A stretch of 64,000 nucleotides of DNA, taken from NCBI RefSeq assembly GCF_026723765.1, contig NZ_CP113524.1:1721001-1785000 (forward strand), read 5' to 3'. Below, piece after piece: positions 2,999 to 49,228 of this stretch; within the stretch, counting starts at the first letter, position 1, and the number at the start of each line of letters is the position of its first letter. The translations under genes were made by a program, and so were the position numbers. The notes below the pieces were generated by a model. That model saw nothing but the letters and a program-made list of their open reading frames with translations, was not told the origin of the DNA and made no database searches. This DNA is from Lacrimispora xylanolytica. Its GTDB lineage: Bacteria > Bacillota > Clostridia > Lachnospirales > Lachnospiraceae.

Positions 2999-5479
2999 AT
3001 GGCAAGTGAAATGTTAAATATACGTGGTATGACATGTGCTGCCTGTGCACAGAGAATTGAAAAAACCGTGCGAAAGGTTTCTGGAGTCAACCAGGCCAAT
3101 GTTAATCTGGCCAGTGAAAAGCTGTTTGTGGAATACGACAGCGATAGTGTGGATCTTTCTGCTGTTAAGGCAGCAGTTACCAAAATCGGATATGAGGTCG
3201 CAGAAAGAACCGAGCATGCGAAAGTAACCATACCAGTTGGAGGCATGACATGTGCCGCCTGTGCAAGAAGAGTGGAAAAGGCCATTGGTAAGCTGGAAGG
3301 AATTGATGAGACCTCCGTAAACTTTGCAACGGAAAAGGCAACGGTAACTTACGACCCTCAGACGGTAAGGCTGTCTGCGATTCGTGGGGCCATTGAAAAA
3401 GCAGGCTATCAGGCTTTGGAAGTGGATAAAGCGGATGCAGCGGATGAAGACCGGGCCAGAAAGCAAAAGGAGATTAAGACACTATGGACCAAGTTCATTG
3501 TTTCTGCTGTTTTCTCCCTGCCTCTTTTCTATATTGCCATGGCTCCTATGATATCCTTTGTCCGTCTGCCATTTCCGGCAGGAATTGAGCCTATGCGGTA
3601 CCCGTTAATTTATGCACTTTTAGAGATGCTTTTGGTGATACCGGTAATTGCAGTGGGATATCGGTTCTATACCGTAGGATTTAAAGCCCTGATCCAGAGA
3701 AGTCCCAATATGGATTCTCTGATTGCCATCGGTACCACAGCAGCTGTGCTTTACAGTGTTTATAACACCTTCCAGATTGCAGCCGGTCATTTTATGGCTG
3801 TGGATGCACTTTATTATGAGTCAGCCGGTGTTATCATAACCCTGATTCTTCTTGGAAAATCCCTGGAGGCAGTATCAAAGGGCAGAACCAGCGAAGCCAT
3901 TAAAAAGCTTATGGGCCTTGCTCCTAAGACAGCTACTGTATTTATGGATGGGATAGAAAAGGAAATTCCTATTGACGAAGTGGAGATAGGGGATGTTATT
4001 ATAGTAAAGCCAGGAGAAAAAATTCCCGTAGACGGAACTGTTTTAAGCGGCCATACATCCATTGATGAATCCATGCTTACCGGTGAAAGTATGCCGGTAG
4101 ATAAAAAAGAGGGGGATCCGGTCTATGCGGCCTCTATAAACACCACTGGTGCCTTCCGTTTTAAAGCAGAAAAGATCGGCAGCGAAACAGCCCTGGCTCA
4201 GATCATTAAGCTGGTTGAGGATGCACAAGGCTCCAAGGCACCCATTGCCCAGATGGCAGATATTGTTTCCGGATATTTTGTTCCTGTTGTCTGTGCCATT
4301 GCACTGGTGTCCGGCATTGCCTGGTATTTCGGAACCGGGGGAGATTTAAAATTTGCGCTTACCATCTTTATTTCCGTTCTGGTAATTGCATGTCCCTGTG
4401 CTCTTGGTCTTGCCACACCAACTGCAATTATGGTGGGAACAGGAAAGGGAGCTGAGAACGGAATCCTTATTAAAGGCGGAGAAGCACTTGAGACCGCTCA
4501 TAAAATAACGACTATTGTATTTGATAAAACTGGTACCATCACAGAAGGAAAACCAACGGTAACGGATGTTCTTACGGCAGAAGGTATTAAAAAAGATACC
4601 CTGTTACAGCTTACCGCGTCCGCGGAAAAGGATTCAGAGCACCCCCTTGGTCAGGCTATTGTGCTGGGAGCTAAGGAAGCCGGACTTGAACTTTTTGCTA
4701 CAGAACGGTTTGAAGCTTTAACAGGCCGTGGAATCGAGGCCCGTATTCAGGGAGAAGACATTCTTGCCGGAAACAGAAAGCTGATGGAAGAGAGAAATAT
4801 TTCCATGGCTGGCATGGAGGAGATCTCCGATCGTCTGGCAGAGGAAGGTAAGACTCCTATGTATGTGGCTATGAATGGAACCTTAGCCGGAATCGTTGCA
4901 GTGGCTGATGTGGTGAAGGAATCCAGCCGGGCTGCCATTGAAAGTCTTCATAAGATGGGAATGGAAGTGGCTATGATCACCGGAGACAATTCAAAAACTG
5001 CCGCTGCCATAGCAAAACAAGTAGGCATCGACCGTGTGCTTTCCGAGGTACTTCCAAAGGATAAGTCAAGTGAAGTGAAAAAGCTCCAGTCAGAAGGCAA
5101 AAAGGTTGCCATGGTAGGAGATGGAATTAATGATGCACCAGCGCTTGCACAGGCTGATATTGGAATTGCCATTGGTTCTGGTACTGACGTAGCCATGGAA
5201 TCCGCTGATATTGTACTCATGCGTTCTGATCTTATGGATGTGCCGACAGCCATTCATTTAAGCCGGCAGACCATACGAAACATCAAGCAGAATCTGTTCT
5301 GGGCCTTTGGTTACAACGTAATTGGAATTCCCATTGCAGCAGGACTTCTTCATCTGCTCTTTAACGGCCCGCTGTTAAATCCTATCTTTGCAGCTGCCGC
5401 CATGAGCTTAAGCTCTGTTTCCGTACTGACTAACGCATTAAGGCTTAAGAGATTTAAGCCAGTGACAGGAAAGAGGTGA
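2999..5479 (+). CDS. copA: Copper-exporting P1B-type ATPase
   Basis: An 826-residue P1B-1 ATPase that pumps Cu(I) out of the cytoplasm. Two N-terminal heavy-metal-binding domains each carry GMTCAAC (Cys 13/16 and 85/88). Then come membrane helices, the actuator TGES (361-364), the transmembrane CPC metal site (465-467), phosphorylated Asp 509 in DKTGT, a SEHPLG nucleotide motif and GDGINDAP (from 707). C-terminal YN and MSLSSVSV helices complete the Cu(I) selectivity set. The ATG at 2999 is preceded by GAGGTG. It is first in an operon with an exported protein and copZ. No CsoR or CopY gene adjoins it; a CsoR-like gene lies about 17 kb away. Confidence 0.97.
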
Positions 5480-42507: not shown

Positions 42508-42927
42508 TTATCTCAACTCCTTCTTCATCCAAACATGTGGGCATCCTTCATCAACATGAACTTCGTCCATTGCAATATATCCATTTTTCTTATAAAACGC
42601 AGACACTCTGACTTGTGCAGATAAATGGGCCGTTTTCCCTTGCATTTTTACAATTTCTTGTTCTGCCATTTTAATCAATTCAGCTCCATAATTTTTCCCT
42701 CTAAATTTCTTTAAAACTGCAATACGTCCTATGACATGGCTTTGCCTTTCATCATTATAATAAAGCCTGCATGTAGCAACGGGAATAGATGATTCATATA
42801 TCAAAATATGTGTAGACATATCATCAATATCATCAAATTCGTTTTCAAATCCTTGCTCCTCAATAAACACGTTTCTGCGGATGTATTTTGCATCCTCTGG
42901 TAATTGTTCGTATACTTTAATATCCAT
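42508..42927 (-). CDS. GNAT N-acetyltransferase (ElaA-like)
   Basis: 139 residues: VRRNVFIEEQG-like RRNVFIEEQGFENEFDDIDD, ATCRLYYNDERQSHVIGRIAVLKKFRGKNYGAELIKMAEQEI (acetyl-CoA loop KFRGKNYG) and a C-terminal FYKKNGYIAMDEVHVDEGCPHVWMKK. This is the ElaA-type GNAT pattern. Substrate is unknown. It is the first gene of a two-gene leftward operon with a perfect-consensus promoter and a structured leader of about 130 bases. GGAAAGGAAG precedes the ATG. Confidence 0.9.
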   Translation of the reverse strand: MDIKVYEQLPEDAKYIRRNVFIEEQGFENEFDDIDDMSTHILIYESSIPVATCRLYYNDERQSHVIGRIAVLKKFRGKNYGAELIKMAEQEIVKMQGKTAHLSAQVRVSAFYKKNGYIAMDEVHVDEGCPHVWMKKELR

Positions 42928-42949
42928 ACTTCTTCCTTTCCAACAAAAT

Positions 42950-43013
42950 AGGCATCCAAGACTAAATCTTATAGTGTCGAAACACCGTACCTACGATTAA
43001 GTCTTGGATGCCT
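42950..43013 (-). promoter_or_regulatory. Long structured leader hairpin upstream of the ElaA-like GNAT gene
   Basis: AGGCATCCAAGACT-A-AATC and GATT-A-AGTCTTGGATGCCT form a 19-bp stem with one mismatch, enclosing an inner GTGT-CGAA-ACAC hairpin. On the minus strand the tail is TATTTTGTT, a weak U-tract, 15 bases before the GNAT ribosome site. It could be a leader terminator, an attenuator or a structured RNA element. A smaller palindrome (TCACTCACCC / GGTGATGAGTGA, 43019-43040) lies upstream. Confidence 0.5.
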
Positions 43014-43066
43014 TATAATCACTCACCCGGTGATGAGTGAAAGCGTTTATTTAATTTGTAAATCAG

Positions 43067-43095
43067 ATTATATTATAGTTCCAATGTTATGTCAA
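43067..43095 (-). promoter_or_regulatory. Consensus promoter of the GNAT/DMT operon
   Basis: On the minus strand TTGACA (43095-43090), 17-bp spacer, TATAAT (43072-43067). It lies outside the recombinase-bounded segment. The remaining sequence of the 580-base gap 42928-43508 holds the leader hairpin, the left inverted repeat with terminator, and the outward promoter. Confidence 0.8.
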
Positions 43096-43263
43096 GAAAG
43101 AAATTGTCTTGTCTTCTTGCATGGAGGTAATACGCCTGTAGAATATAGCGATTACGGCTGATTATTTAGTTTGTGCAGGAGACATGATGAAAGTTAATAT
43201 TGAAAAAACCTTATTTTTCCTATATTTTATAGGTTGGTCAAATAATATTGATAGGCACTAAAA

Positions 43264-43302
43264 TATAAAAAAAGGAACGCAGTATACTTGATACTGTGCT
43301 CC
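43264..43302 (-). terminator. Terminator formed by the left inverted repeat and an external U-tract
   Basis: Read leftward, AGGAGCACAGTAT and ATACTGCGTTCCT pair (13 bp with one G-U and one mismatch, loop CAAGT), followed by seven T (43273-43267) and ATATTTT. The stem comes from the left repeat; the U-tract is outside the invertible segment. Confidence 0.75.
43277..43298 (+). repeat. Left 22-bp inverted repeat (recombination core site)
   Basis: Begins ACGCAGTATACTTGATACTG, then TG. Internally it has inverted 7-base arms around a 7-base asymmetric spacer (TACTTGA), the usual layout of a tyrosine-recombinase crossover site. It differs from the right copy at one base. Confidence 0.85.
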
Positions 43303-43330
43303 TAAATAATTGCATATTTCATCCAATTTT

Positions 43331-43359
43331 ATTATACAATATCTGTCATAAATTGTCAA
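43331..43359 (-). promoter_or_regulatory. Perfect-consensus outward promoter inside the invertible segment
   Basis: On the minus strand TTGACA (43359-43354), exactly 17 bases, TATAAT (43336-43331), start near 43324. As sequenced, transcription meets the left-repeat terminator within 60 bases. In the inverted orientation it would read through the right repeat, which has no U-tract, into the chemoreceptor gene at 44842. Confidence 0.85.
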
Positions 43360-43508
43360 ACCAGTGGATTACATGAAGAAATGCGTCTATATACACAAAT
43401 TATGCGATATTATAACGGTTCATACTATGAAATTATAGTGTTTATTGACTTATTCGCCGTCAAAGGAAACGTCATAAAAAATACTACATCAGTGAAAGGA
43501 GATTAGCA

Positions 43509-44675
43509 ATGGCACGAAGAGGAGAAAACATTTATAAACGGAAAGATGGACGTTGGGAGGGGAGGAGTCTAAATAAAAATGGAAAATATCATTATTTTTA
43601 TGCCAGAACATACAGGGAAGTTAAAGAGAAAATGAAGGATTTTAAAGAAGATAATATAAGCAAAACATCTGTAAAAAGTAATAATGCCACGGAACTTTTC
43701 CTTTGCTGGCTTACGGGAGAAGTTTCGATGCGTGTAAAGCCGTCTACATATGAGAGTTATTACCGATGTGTCTACAAACACATAATACCCTTTTTCACAA
43801 AGAAAGAACATAATAATATAACAAAAGAATCAGTTTCCAGCTTTGTAAAATACATAAGAGAAAATGATACTTTGGCAGATACGTCGAAAAAGAAAATATT
43901 TTCTATCTTTAAAATTGCTTTAAAAGAGATATTAAAAGCCTCCCCTCAACTACATGAACTTTTGGATCTTATAAAGCTGCCAAATACAGAATGTGGAGAA
44001 GTGCAGGTATTTACGACAAAAGAACAGCAGAAGATTGAACAAGGAGTGCTTAAATGTGATGATTCAAGTGCCATTGGTATAATTTTATGCTTTTATACCG
44101 GGATACGATTGGGAGAACTTTGCGCACTTAAGTGGGACGATATTGATATAGAATCAGGAACTATGTCTATTATGAGAACTGTATCCAGGATAAGAGTATT
44201 TGAGAACAATGATAGCAAAACAGCCTTACATATAGGCGTTCCAAAGAGCCGTAAATCGATCAGAAAAATCCCTCTTCCTGAATTTCTTCTGAAGCTGTTA
44301 ATTAATAGCAGTTTATATAACGGTACGAATAACTATTTTCTATTTACTGGAAATGATACTCCTTATGATCCTAGGAGGTTTCAGAATCTGTTTAAAAGAA
44401 TATTAAAGGATAATAAAATCGCTGACCGCAAATTCCATACGATCAGACACACCTTCGCCACCCGAGCCTTGGAGTTAGGGGTAGATATAAAAACCGTCAG
44501 TGAATTATTGGGACATTCCGGAGTTTCAATTACTCTTAATGTATATGCCCATTCGTTAATGGAGCATAAAAAGGCAGCCATAAGTAAATTTAACAATTTA
44601 TATATAATGAATACACAAGAAGCACCATTCGCCGTCGATTACTCCGTCTTAAATTTGGAAAGTATGTGTTTATAA
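43509..44675 (+). CDS. Tyrosine recombinase / site-specific integrase
   Basis: 388 residues. The N-terminal AP2-like arm-binding domain ([16 protein letters not shown]) is followed by a SAM-like core-binding domain and a C-terminal catalytic domain with Arg 200 (TGIRLGEL), Lys in [14 protein letters not shown], His 310-x-x-Arg 313 (HTIRH), His 336 (LGHSG) and nucleophile Tyr 346 (NVYAHS). All catalytic residues are present, so it should be active. It carries a C-terminal tail of about 30 residues. AAGGAG precedes the ATG. It is the only gene between the 22-bp inverted repeats, pointing to DNA inversion. No terminator follows, so its transcript may run into the chemoreceptor gene. Confidence 0.95.
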
Positions 44676-44693
44676 AAGGATATTCTAGTAAAA

Positions 44694-44715
44694 CGCAGTA
44701 TCAAGTATACTGCGT
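44694..44715 (-). repeat. Right 22-bp inverted repeat (recombination core site)
   Basis: Its complement begins ACGCAGTATACTTGATACTG, then CG, matching the left copy at 21 of 22 positions in opposite orientation. It lies 18 bases after the recombinase stop codon and 126 bases before the chemoreceptor ATG. Flanked by CACATC, so no U-tract follows. Confidence 0.85.
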
Positions 44716-44841
44716 CACATCAAACAGGTAAACAATATTAACATTTCTGTTAGCAGGAATCAAGAAGCATTTCAACAGGAGGAAGAGGAAATACAATACT
44801 ACGTTTCCTGAGTAGGTAAATAACTAAGAGGAGAAAAAGTC

Positions 44842-46920
44842 ATGTCTGAACGTAAGAAAAAAAGGAAAAGTAATGAAGAAAGCAGTTCTTCTGGTGCCAA
44901 GGCCAAAGCAACTGGCCTAAAAAGTCTACTGGCTAAAATTCTTATTTTTATAGGAGTTCCAGTCGTCTTATCCTATTGTATCGTGGGGCTTATTTTACTG
45001 AATCTGGTGCGGGTGAATGTGGATCAGCTGACAGAGGAGAAGCTGGAGGCAAAATCAGAGACAGCTTCCATTGAGATGGAGAAATTTTTCGACCGGTATA
45101 GAAACAGTGCCGATCAGCTCTCCAAAAGTGTGCAGATACAAAAATTATTTACAGACTTAAAGCCAGGTACTAAAATCCAGGATAGTCAGGATTTTGCAGA
45201 TGTAATCCAGTCATTGAAAAACAATAGTGATACGGATCAGGAAAATATTCTTAGCATCTGGATTTCTGATTTTGACAGCAGCCAGCTTGCACAATCCAAT
45301 GGGTTTGTATCCGATGCAGACTATCAGATATCAGATCGGCCCTGGTACCAGACATTGTTAAAAGAACAGAAAACAGTAATGACGGAGCCCTATGAAGATT
45401 TTACCACAAAGGCCCAGATCGTAAGCATCATATCCCCTGTGTATTCAGGAAATGGCGGTCAGATCGTAGGAGCAGTAGGCATTGATTTTTCCTTGGATGG
45501 ACTTAAAAAGACCATCGGTTCTTATCAGCTTGGAAATACCGGATTTTACATAGTTACTTCCGCAGACGGACAGATCATCTATCATCCCAAGGAGGAGATG
45601 ATCAATAAGAAGGTCAGCGAACAGGATATGTCTGATGGCATTAAACAGGCACTTTTAACTTCTTTAGAAGGTAAAATTCAGTATGCTTCCCATGGAGTAG
45701 AGGTACACGGATATGTAAGTAAGATTGGTGATACCGGCTGGATGGTAGCAACAGGACTTCCCTTAAAAGAGTTTTATAGTGAGTATAATAAGATTACTGC
45801 TGCAATGGCCGTTATATTCCTGATTGCAGTATCCCTGGTAGTGGGAATGATCTTCCTTGTATCAAAGGGAATTGTTGCACCATTAAAGGCACTGACCAAT
45901 ACCGCGAATCAGATTGCAGATGGAAGGCTTGATATATCAGCAGATGTCAAATCTCAGGATGAGACGGGACAGCTTGCCAATGCCTTAAACCGTACGGTGG
46001 TCCAGCTAAACCGCTACATTGGATATATAAAGGAAATCACCTCTGTTCTTGAAACCATGGCAAGAGGAGATATCAAAATAGATCTGGAACAGGATTATGC
46101 AGGAGAGTTTCAGCCGATTAAAGAAGCGTTGTTACAGATATCTCATTCCTTAAATCAAACTCTCACAGCCATAAAAATTACGGCCGATCAGGTGAATACT
46201 GGAGCAGAGCAGGTTTCCTCTGCAGCCCAGGCCCTTGCTTCTGGATCTACGGAACAAGCGGCTACTGTAGAGGAGCTGAGCGCTTCTATTATCAGCATTT
46301 CCATGCAGGCAGAACAGAATGCAGAGAATGTAAGAAAGGCTTCCGATTATGTTCGCCAGGCTGGAGACGGTCTGACAGAAAGCAATCATCATATGAAAAG
46401 GCTTAACGCAGCTATGGATGAAATCAGTCAGGCTTCTGAGAAAATATCAAGCATCACTAAGGTGATTGAGGACATTGCTTTCCAGACAAATATACTTGCA
46501 CTAAATGCTGCGGTGGAGGCAGCCAGAGCAGGCGAAGCAGGTAAGGGATTTGCAGTGGTTGCCGATGAAGTCAGAAATCTTGCTGCAAAATCAGCAGAGG
46601 CAGCCAAACAGACCTCGGAACTGATCGGACTTTCTACCGTTACAGTAACAGAAGGCGAGAAAATGGCTGCTGAGACCTCAGAAACTCTTCAGGATGTAGC
46701 ATTAAAATCACAGCTGGTAGTAGAAGTGATTCAAGAGATTGACAAAGCCTCCTCGGATCAGGCCGCCTCTATCAGTCAGATTAATCAGGGACTTTCCCAG
46801 GTGTCTGCTGTAGTTCAGACCAATGCAGCTACTGCAGAAGAAAGCTCTGCATCCAGTGAGGAGCTTGCAGCCCAGGCCCAGGTTCTTAATAATGAAGTGA
46901 GCAAATTTGTTCTCTATTAA
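44842..46920 (+). CDS. Methyl-accepting chemotaxis protein with amino-acid-type dCache sensor, second of three
   Basis: 692 residues: basic cytoplasmic N-tail, helix (about 30-55), an extracellular double Cache domain, second helix (about 320-345), HAMP and a signalling hairpin with the tip [23 protein letters not shown]. The sensor contains Y-x4-R-x-W-Y ([10 protein letters not shown]) and a later Asp in VGIDFSLD, the residue set I recall as the amino-acid-binding dCache motif; an amino-acid ligand is therefore likely. The ATG follows AAGAGGAG. No convincing promoter was found between the recombinase gene and this start, suggesting that expression depends on the invertible segment. Confidence 0.94.
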
Positions 46921-46968
46921 GTATAGGGAGACAAAAAGTAAATAGAGCAATTGAGTAAAAATATCAAG

Positions 46969-47004
46969 AAAACGCCGGTCAGATGGATTTGGACCAGGCG
47001 TTTT
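46969..47004 (+). terminator. Terminator after chemoreceptor 2
   Basis: AAAACGCC-GGTC / GACC-A-GGCGTTTT stem with a one-base bulge, followed by TTTTCC. Confidence 0.65.
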
Positions 47005-47080
47005 CCTGTGTTTATAAGAGTTTTTTATTAATGTTGCTTTAAATGTGTGTAAATTGCATGTCGAATACAAAAGAGTTCAG

Positions 47081-47109
47081 TTGCCGAAATTTGCCATTTA
47101 TGGTATACT
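47081..47109 (+). promoter_or_regulatory. Promoter of chemoreceptor 3 with structured leader
   Basis: TTGCCG (47081-47086), 17-bp spacer, extended TGG-TATACT (-10 at 47104-47109). A leader of about 170 bases follows, with a TGACAG...CTGTCA hairpin around AGGAAACC (about 47187-47211) and a GAAAAAC...GTTTTTG hairpin. I could not match it to a known riboswitch. The 364-base gap 46921-47284 contains no gene. Confidence 0.5.
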
Positions 47110-47284
47110 ATGCAAAATACAAGTCGAAAAACATAGTACGATAGTTTTTGATACCGTAAAAATACTTCTTGATCCGGATGAACTATGACAGCAGGAAACC
47201 AGCCTGTCACAGATGCTTCCGCCAGAAAATGAGGGTGTTAAAAATGAGGGAGGCTTTTCGGTTATACTAAGGAGGCATAGAATC

Positions 47285-49228
47285 GTGAAGTATTTAAAAA
47301 ACAAGCTATTACTTTTTATTTCATTATTATTAGGTTTTACCGTCATATTTCTGACTACCATTTCTTCTTTTCTTTATTATAATAGTTCCATGAAAGAAGC
47401 AAAAAAGAATTCCTCATATCTTGCGGCAGCGTATCAGCAGGGGATTGATTCTGTGCTGAATATTTACCGCAGTGAACTTAGTATCACTGCTTCCAAAGGG
47501 TTTCTGACCGATGGGAAGACATCTACCGCCGATCAGAAGCTCCTTCTGAGTGAAGAGGCAGCGGCAGCGGGCTTTGACTACATAACCATTGCAGATTCCA
47601 AGGGAACCAATGATAAGGGAGACCAGATCGCAGACCAGGAATTCTTTAAGCAGGCAGCGAACGGGGTAACCTATATCTCTAATCCATTTGTAAATTCAGA
47701 GAATAAGCTTGTTCTTTATATCGGAGCGCCTATTGGTAATACGGGGAAGGTTTTATACGGAGCATTGCCATACCAGACCATTATGGATGGCTTGACAAAG
47801 ATTAAAGTGGGTGAAAGTGGATACGCCTTTGTCGTTGACCGCAATGGAGTCACCGTCGTTCATCCAAACCCCGATGATGTAACTAATCCCAAGGATTATA
47901 TCGAACTTGCAAAGAAAGATTCCTCTTATATCCCTACATCAAAGATATTTAAACAGATGATGGAAGGAAACACAGGGACGGGATTTAGCTTTTATAAAGG
48001 GGCCCGCCGTTTAGTAGGCTTCACTCCATTAAGCGGTCCGGAAGGCTGGAATGTTGCAGTTACCATGCCAGTGACTCAGATTGAAGGAGCAGTACGTTTT
48101 ACCATAGTAATGTGTGCCTTAACTGGAATCGCCCTTATTTTGTTGGCTATTTTAATCACCCGTATCTTTGCCAATAAGATTACAGAGCCTATTGTATTGG
48201 CGACACGCCGAATTGAGAAGCTGGCAGAGGGAGACTTACTTTTAGAGGTACCTGAGACAGGCGGAAAGGATGAGATCGCCCGGCTTCTACTGGCACTTCA
48301 AAATACCATCTGCGGACTGCGCACTTATATATCAGATATTTCAGCAGTGTTACATGGAGTGGCTACCAAGGATTTAACAATCAGTAGTGAAGTCCAGTAT
48401 AAGGGTGATTTTGTTCCCATTCAAAACGCATTGGAGCAGATACTTAATTCTCTTAACACTACCCTTTTCCACATAGCGGAATCCACAGATCAGGTAAGAT
48501 GCAGCTCGGAACAGGTGGCTTTAACTGGTAGAAATCTTGCAGAAAATTCAGCAGAGCAGGCAGCGACTACAGAAGCACTTACCAATTCCTTAGAGATGGT
48601 ATCCAGTTATATTAAGGAAAATGCACAGCACTCTCTGTCCATGAAAGATGCTACGGAATCCGCACTTTTGGAGACTCAAAGAGGCAATGAGGAGATGGAA
48701 CGGCTGTTACAGTCCATGGCTAACATTGATGAGTTTTCCAAACGAATTCAAAGTATAGTTAAGATTATCGATGATATTGCATTTCAGACCAACATATTGG
48801 CTTTAAATGCTGCGGTAGAGGCAGCCCGTGCAGGAGATGCCGGAAAAGGCTTCTCTGTAGTGGCAGATGAGGTCCGTCAGCTTGCATCAAAGAGTGCGGA
48901 TGCAGCAAAGCAGACGACAGACTTGATCCACAGCACTATAGAATCTGTGGCACAGGGGAAACAGAATACGGAACAGACAGCAGGTGTATTTAAGACCATA
49001 GTGGAGCAGACCGGCAGTATCAATACTTTGGTTGCCAAAATCTCCGAATCCTTAGAAAATCAGTCCAACCGCGTCACAGAGCTTGAGGAGGGAATGCAAA
49101 GGATTTCCATGGTTACCCAGGCAAACTCAGCAACAGCAGAAGAGAGTGCTGCAACCAGCGGGGATTTGTTAAACCAGATGCAGCAGCTTAAGGAATTAAT
49201 TGAAGAGTTCCGCATTAAAAACTCATAA
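47285..49228 (+). CDS. Methyl-accepting chemotaxis protein (Cache sensor), third of three
   Basis: 647 residues from GTG 47285, which has AAGGAGG nine bases upstream and places the first helix ([19 protein letters not shown]) at the very N-terminus, as expected. Extracellular Cache domain ([46 protein letters not shown]), second helix (about 275-300), HAMP, and signalling tip [40 protein letters not shown]. Sensor architecture is closest to chemoreceptor 1, without the Y-x4-R-x-W-Y motif of chemoreceptor 2. Ligand unknown. Confidence 0.94.

Follow-up and report, generated by a model that had tools for sequence, protein, structure and literature searches.

The window, that is, the whole stretch of 64,000 nucleotides of Lacrimispora xylanolytica DNA that was analysed, contains at 43277-44715 a segment bounded by inverted repeats and followed by a chemoreceptor gene. 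The features of the locus are listed in order of position.

43267-43302, minus strand: predicted terminator for the outward promoter in the OFF orientation; the U-tract (43267-43273) and the outer half-stem lie outside the segment and the inner half-stem (43297-43302) inside
43277-43296, plus strand: left (distal) inverted repeat, with the core CAGTAT-ACTTG-ATACTG at 43280-43296
43331-43359, minus strand: candidate invertible promoter TTGACA-N17-TATAAT, pointing left, away from the chemoreceptor gene
43458-43473, plus strand: arm-type motif CGTC-N8-CGTC at the promoter end, 178-179 bp from the distal site in 9/9 window-type segments
43509-44675, plus strand: tyrosine recombinase gene (388 aa) within the candidate invertible segment; PF00589, E = 9.7e-27, and PF14659, E = 6.5e-7
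44633-44648, plus strand: second arm-type motif CGTC-N8-CGTC, located inside the recombinase gene at its 3' end; its distance to the outer end of the proximal site is 81-82 bp in 9/9 window-type segments
44696-44715, minus strand: right (proximal) inverted repeat, with the core CAGTAT-CAAGT-ATACTG at 44696-44712
44842-46920, plus strand: target gene, a dCache_1 chemoreceptor (692 aa; dCache_1, HAMP and MCPsignal domains) with an amino-acid-type pocket motif

The repeats were described in the original prediction as 22 bp long and identical at 21 positions, and they do match at 21/22 positions, 20 bp of them being perfect (100% complementary). A chance origin of the 20-bp repeats is ruled out, since the longest inverted pair in 100 dinucleotide-preserving shuffles of 43000-45000 was 16 bp. 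As had also been proposed, each repeat has an arm-spacer-arm layout, namely a 6-5-6 core with symmetric arms around an oriented spacer, as in promoter switches served by tyrosine recombinases. With up to one mismatch allowed, the 18-bp site GCAGTATACTTGATACTG has only two copies in the own genome, both at these repeats (control, 0).

The outward promoter claimed to lie just inside the left repeat is indeed a perfect one (12/12 consensus positions, read from 43359 to 43331) and is directed across this repeat. Concerning the terminator that the left repeat had been said to form, the RNA read leftward folds with -16.3 kcal/mol (z = -3.3; 0/200 shuffles as good) and is followed by seven U outside the segment; a simple terminator scan did not list it. 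The lower stem of the hairpin pairs six inner bases with outer ones and is thus formed in the present orientation only. Neither the stem partner nor the U-tract is present past the right repeat, the lack of a U-tract being in accordance with what had been stated for the bases after 44715. The chemoreceptor gene starts 126 bp past the right repeat and had been expected to lack a good promoter of its own; in agreement with this, no plus-strand promoter with at least 9/12 consensus positions is found in 44716-44841. A riboswitch or another known RNA was rejected for 42800-47300, where Rfam gave no match at the gathering threshold.

The recombinase gene is intact and, as claimed, the sole gene between the repeats. 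Residues R200, H310, R313, H336 and Y346 sit at the usual catalytic motif positions, and we take them to be the catalytic residues of the enzyme. Among solved structures, the best matches are chains with the name 'Int protein' (6en0/6emy, 57 bits), presumably the Int of Tn1549. No arm-binding domain was recognized by Pfam in the first 64 residues of the recombinase. Nevertheless, the CGTC-N8-CGTC motifs together with the cores look like a core-plus-arm architecture, and they are probably binding sites of the N-terminal part of the recombinase.

Regarding the chemoreceptor, its residues Y161, R166, W168, Y169, Y184 and D215 match Y121, R126, W128, Y129, Y144 and D173, all of which we assign to PctA, D173 by assumption. 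The spacing is that of PctA except for two extra residues before D215. The ligands are therefore likely to be amino acids, and the amino-acid sensing that had been suggested is plausible in view of the six matching pocket residues. The accessible text of PMC10104139 names Y121, R126, W128, Y129 and Y144 as residues of the PctA amino-acid motif, and prints D173 as a residue of PctD.

Conservation of the sites, the segment and the recombinase

The 18-bp site was searched, with one mismatch allowed, in 25 genomes of the genus including the own one, and a reversed-pattern control gave no match. The site is present in 15/25 genomes, 14 of which have two sites: in ten genomes these form an inverted pair within a single contig, in four they are split between two contigs, and G019 has a single site. 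The sensor of the orthologous receptor (E < 1e-100) was found in 11 genomes, and in all of them (11/11) the site lies directly upstream of the receptor gene. The remaining site-bearing genomes are G023, G005, G019 and G002. The receptor side is not seen in G019, and the receptor is cut down in G023 (L047) and G005 (L050), where the switch is kept next to a receptor that has lost its sensor part. In G002 (L116, 5151-5573) a variant pair of sites with the spacer ATTTG lies upstream of a different chemoreceptor that is further off; its arm motif is weak and no consensus promoter was found at this locus.

The same locus is present in Clostridium sp. 12(A) and in Lacrimispora algidixylanolytica SPL73, with DNA identities of 99.7% and 78%, respectively, and the promoter, both cores and the arm spacing are retained at 78% identity. 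In a sample of 397 genomes of the family, the pair was found in only two genomes, both of this species, and a single one-mismatch site in one other.

The segment is conserved in its geometry across two lengths. Six genomes (G003, G004, G005, G010, G020 and G023) have short segments of 349-364 bp which carry no recombinase gene and keep both sites, the promoter (53-54 bp from the distal site) and the two arm motifs. The original prediction of a self-encoded switch, with repeats conserved together with the recombinase gene, is supported with a correction: the recombinase gene is inside the segment in the window and the pair of sites stays with the receptor in the genus, but the gene is absent from the segment in these six relatives. 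Arm motifs were parsed in 26 segments as CGTC-N8-CGTC with one substitution tolerated. The promoter lies 52-54 bp from the distal site in 9/9 window-type segments, and the arm-motif spacing is the same in those of 0.36 and 1.44 kb. In 14 paralogous segments the distal arm motif is 168-169 bp away, that is, ten bases or one helical turn shorter. The distal motif was missed in 3/26 parsed segments, namely that of G012 and the B1 segments of G000 and G041, the last two of which had been turned round by the parsing script. An outward promoter with at most one mismatch is found in 26/26 parsed segments.

Two segment-borne recombinase genes deserve a separate mention. In G041, a genome of the same species, the gene is frameshifted around residue 330 (L117), which could be a sequencing error or a real loss. 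In G007 the gene is intact as in the window, and a tandem duplication (L127, 4960-5448; repeats at 5026 and 5432) takes in its 3' end, its arm motif and the right repeat.

Paralogous switches and an apparent wider family of cassettes

The own genome (4.5 Mb, single contig) encodes four recombinases of the window type. Two of the three paralogues, at 3.32 and 3.43 Mb, also lie between inverted repeats with CAGTTT-type arms, other spacers and an outward promoter, and a 4HB chemoreceptor gene follows 90-99 bp past the proximal repeat. The spacers of the three switches differ (ACTTG, AACTA and ATTCA). Switches are thus found at 3 of the 21 MCP-domain matches in this genome. Around the other 18 MCP-domain genes no 6-5-6 pair was detected, by a scan which also missed the L008 switch because of its degenerate left core; a looser scan of the same 18 genes gave one 14-bp pair, reaching into the coding region of L201, that was judged to be due to chance. 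A consensus-like fixed promoter lies within 450 bp of the start in 7/18 of these switch-free genes.

The comparison across the genus covered 33 recombinase loci, of which 19 belong to type B and 14 to type A. All type-B loci have flanking repeats (19/19), and an MCP signalling domain lies alongside in 18/19, the remaining locus beginning at a contig end inside the repeat. Their promoters are perfect in 18 cases and have one mismatch in the other. At the 14 type-A loci no flanking repeat of at least 13 bp was found (four have 11-bp pairs, which is chance level), and on this ground the type-A recombinase was rejected as a component of the switch. In the recombinase tree the window protein is sister to type A (99/95); for this tree the program warned that B1 and G012, both on long branches, are joined to each other, and the type-A rows of G013 and G011 are missing. 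The type-A proteins of G003, G004, G005, G010, G016-G020 and G023 form one clade (100/100), and all ten genomes carry the site. It is possible that a type-A recombinase acts in trans on the short segments, although the clade also mirrors the kinship of the species.

Beyond the genus, recombinases about 38% identical were found in 90 of 397 genomes of the family (E up to 1e-45; two of the 90 are of the own species), with at most four matches per genome scored. The family loci L216-L243 were inspected, and in 22/28 the recombinase gene lies between inverted repeats of 14-29 matched bases; half of these repeat-flanked loci (11 of 22) have an outward promoter with at most one mismatch. No MCP gene was found within 1.5 kb of any of them (0/28), and their neighbours include sugar epimerase, capsule-type and surface-protein genes, judged by eye from the translations. 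In one locus (L225, 1101-3008) the cassette is flanked by two epimerase-like genes that resemble each other and are divergently oriented, an arrangement suggestive of a promoter that selects one of two alleles.

Recombinase-in-repeat promoter cassettes thus appear to be a wider family, which this genus has placed before chemoreceptors. It is moderately probable that the genus keeps a family of self-encoded chemoreceptor switches, a branch of the cassettes found before surface and polysaccharide genes, and that three of the 21 MCP-domain genes in the own genome flip independently of one another, given the different spacers of their switches. In that case, a clone would split into cells that differ in the set of chemicals they sense.

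Orientation of the segment and possible traces of inversion

Assemblies of the relatives provide indirect information about inversion. Nine contig ends carry the site, in G021, G018, G017, G016 and G019 (5/15 site-bearing genomes), and 8/9 stop 0, 2 or 3 bp past the core. The two ends of the segment begin to differ directly after the core (+0) in the window, and in six relatives they do so after +2 to +4. The eight ends are thus at the divergence point, which is where mixed orientations would branch an assembly graph. In G021, two contigs (L043 and L044), one per flank, end at the last base of the part shared by the repeats. Both flanks stop 2-3 bases beyond the core in G018 and G017; in G016 the contig ends are at +3 for one flank and 58 bases in for the other, and one flank ends at +3 in G019. 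The position of the eight ends is as expected if the cultures held both orientations. Moreover, a separate contig of G021 has exactly 1439 bases, as long as 43277-44715, a match in length alone. Six other multi-contig genomes (G003, G004, G005, G007, G010 and G020) were assembled straight through the pair.

G021 also has a paralogous switch located right at the start of a contig, at its first base. In this genome the B1 switch is on two overlapping contig ends, one of them starting inside the repeat (L129 and L189, at the end of C16 and the start of C12), and this is perhaps another trace of mixed orientation.

The flipped order had been proposed as something to look for in related genomes, and none was found: in 26/26 parsed segments the promoter is in the OFF orientation, facing away from the neighbouring receptor, with no ON-oriented assembly among them. 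The orientation was read by script in 24 and by hand in two, which are one locus in two genomes of the same species; the script had scored these as 'toward' because of a second receptor, which lies 2.3 kb away on the far side. This excess is likely due to a strong OFF bias in culture or to a directional recombinase. It is also the main support for a different explanation, in which the segment once inverted and is now locked or decaying in the OFF state, so that any production of the receptor would depend on transcription reading through from the recombinase gene. The frameshift in G041 and the retention of the pair of sites in G023 and G005, where the sensor part of the receptor is gone, fit this explanation too. 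On the other hand, the recombinase is intact in the window and in G007, the promoter, cores and arm spacing have been kept at 78% DNA identity, and in G021, which is the closest relative outside the species, contigs terminate at both repeats. A locked switch is thus considered unlikely.

It could also be argued that nothing inverts, that the outward promoter makes a short RNA, and that the repeats are bidirectional terminators whose hairpins trouble the assembly. A terminator about 60 nt downstream would indeed yield a short RNA, and hairpins are generally known to depress coverage. However, the coincidence of the contig ends with the divergence point goes against such an explanation, as does the assembly of four of the five broken genomes (G016-G019) through a paralogous recombinase-bearing switch, which serves as a control. 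Furthermore, a k-mer short enough to confuse repeats of 20-22 bp would presumably not give 40-430 contigs per 4.5-5.6 Mb, and the fixed spacing of cores and arm motifs would be left without a place. The absence of inversion is therefore very improbable. A small mobile integrase element, with the repeats as its ends and an incidental insertion before the chemoreceptor, would agree with the related recombinases that lie between inverted repeats by unrelated genes in the family, but this explanation was rejected as hardly credible, because there is one pair per genome, always at the orthologous receptor where this is present (11/11), the six short segments lack the gene but retain the sites, the promoter and the arm motifs, and symmetric arms around an oriented spacer are characteristic of crossover sites rather than of transposon ends.

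The reading of 43277-44715 as a self-encoded invertible promoter is thus held with high confidence, and, as far as sequence comparison can tell, the segment is very probably a working phase switch. The phase-variable switch of the original prediction is strongly backed by the comparison, through the pair of sites kept with the receptor in the genus, the logic of promoter and terminator, and the contig ends at the crossover sites in five relatives. The anatomy, the conservation, the fixed geometry and these contig ends are observed, and inversion, transcription, arm binding, ligand and behaviour are inferred. The recombinase would cut and exchange the two inverted core sites, its N-terminal part, bound to the arm motifs, would help to build the inversion complex, and the 1.44-kb segment would flip. 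In the OFF orientation the promoter would act leftward and the transcript would stop within about 60 nt, at the terminator that is half inside and half outside the segment. In the ON orientation the promoter would stand 181 nt before the start codon of the chemoreceptor gene and, no longer followed by the lower stem and the U-tract, would drive transcription of the receptor, while the recombinase gene would read into the terminator. The expected outcome is that a single receptor, probably one for amino acids, varies between ON and OFF.

Relation to known systems and significance

Most known cases of phase variation concern surface structures, flagella and restriction systems, and invertible promoters are reportedly the subject of work by Jiang et al. 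(2019). In the fimS switch of E. coli, a promoter between short inverted repeats is flipped ON and OFF by the tyrosine recombinases FimB and FimE; the repeats, the type of recombinase and, as predicted, the promoter inversion are shared with the present segment, whereas the FimB/FimE genes are outside the fimS segment and the target is a pilus operon. The Hin / fljBA segment of Salmonella carries an outward promoter as well. Hin, however, belongs to the serine recombinases and depends on Fis and an enhancer, and its target is flagellin, whereas a tyrosine recombinase (PF00589) and a chemoreceptor are found here, so the segment is not of the Hin type. The hin gene lies inside its invertible segment, according to the accessible text of PMC5903667, as the recombinase gene does in the window.

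The same accessible text describes the Cdi switches of C. difficile (cwpV and flagellar; RecV) as tyrosine-recombinase inversions upstream of motility or surface genes, a feature that this clostridial locus would share (PMC5903667). RecV acts in trans on several switches, whereas the recombinase-bearing forms described here each enclose their own gene. In the fimbrial switch of Providencia stuartii the segment also encloses the recombinase (PMC5903667).

The original prediction knew of no switch directed at a chemoreceptor, and this is not quite correct. In the accessible part of PMC5903667 (2018), inversion signatures are given for Anaerotignum propionicum near an MCP gene and, twice, for C. 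thermocellum near chemotaxis genes, and signalling and chemotaxis are the commonest functions near such signatures in Clostridia. Like the locus described here, they would pair an inversion with a nearby methyl-accepting chemotaxis gene or, in the case of Providencia, enclose a recombinase within the segment. As presented there, however, they are read-based signatures without anatomy, whereas the sites, promoter, terminator, arm motifs, orthology of the target and genus-wide repetition are resolved here. In a literature search whose coverage left out most subscription papers, nothing was found on invertible promoters and chemoreceptors, invertons and chemotaxis, phase variation in Lacrimispora, or phase-variable chemoreceptors controlled by a recombinase and inversion. 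What is new here is the dedicated, repeated and self-encoded design of the probable recombinase switches for chemoreceptors.

If this reading is true, phase variation would act on sensing itself, and genetically identical cells would swim toward different chemicals, as a form of bet-hedging in chemotaxis. The paralogous switches with different spacers would offer a natural set for the study of recombinase specificity, and the conserved cores, the arm-like motifs and the short forms without recombinase make the switch directly testable. Moreover, the assemblies that are always OFF raise the question of a directional bias.

Integrases of the Tn916/Tn1549 type use core sites plus arm sites, and both the closest structures (6en0/6emy) and the core/arm layout resemble them, whereas here there is an inversion segment with two sites. 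The locus does not belong to an integrative conjugative element or a prophage: no conjugative genes were found at 41-49 kb of the window, only receptor, acetyltransferase and transporter genes are nearby, and the repeats are inverted. The acetyltransferase gene (42508-42927) is preceded on the minus strand by a hairpin with 22-bp arms at 42950-43013, without Rfam match, and by a second perfect TTGACA-N17-TATAAT promoter at 43095-43067.
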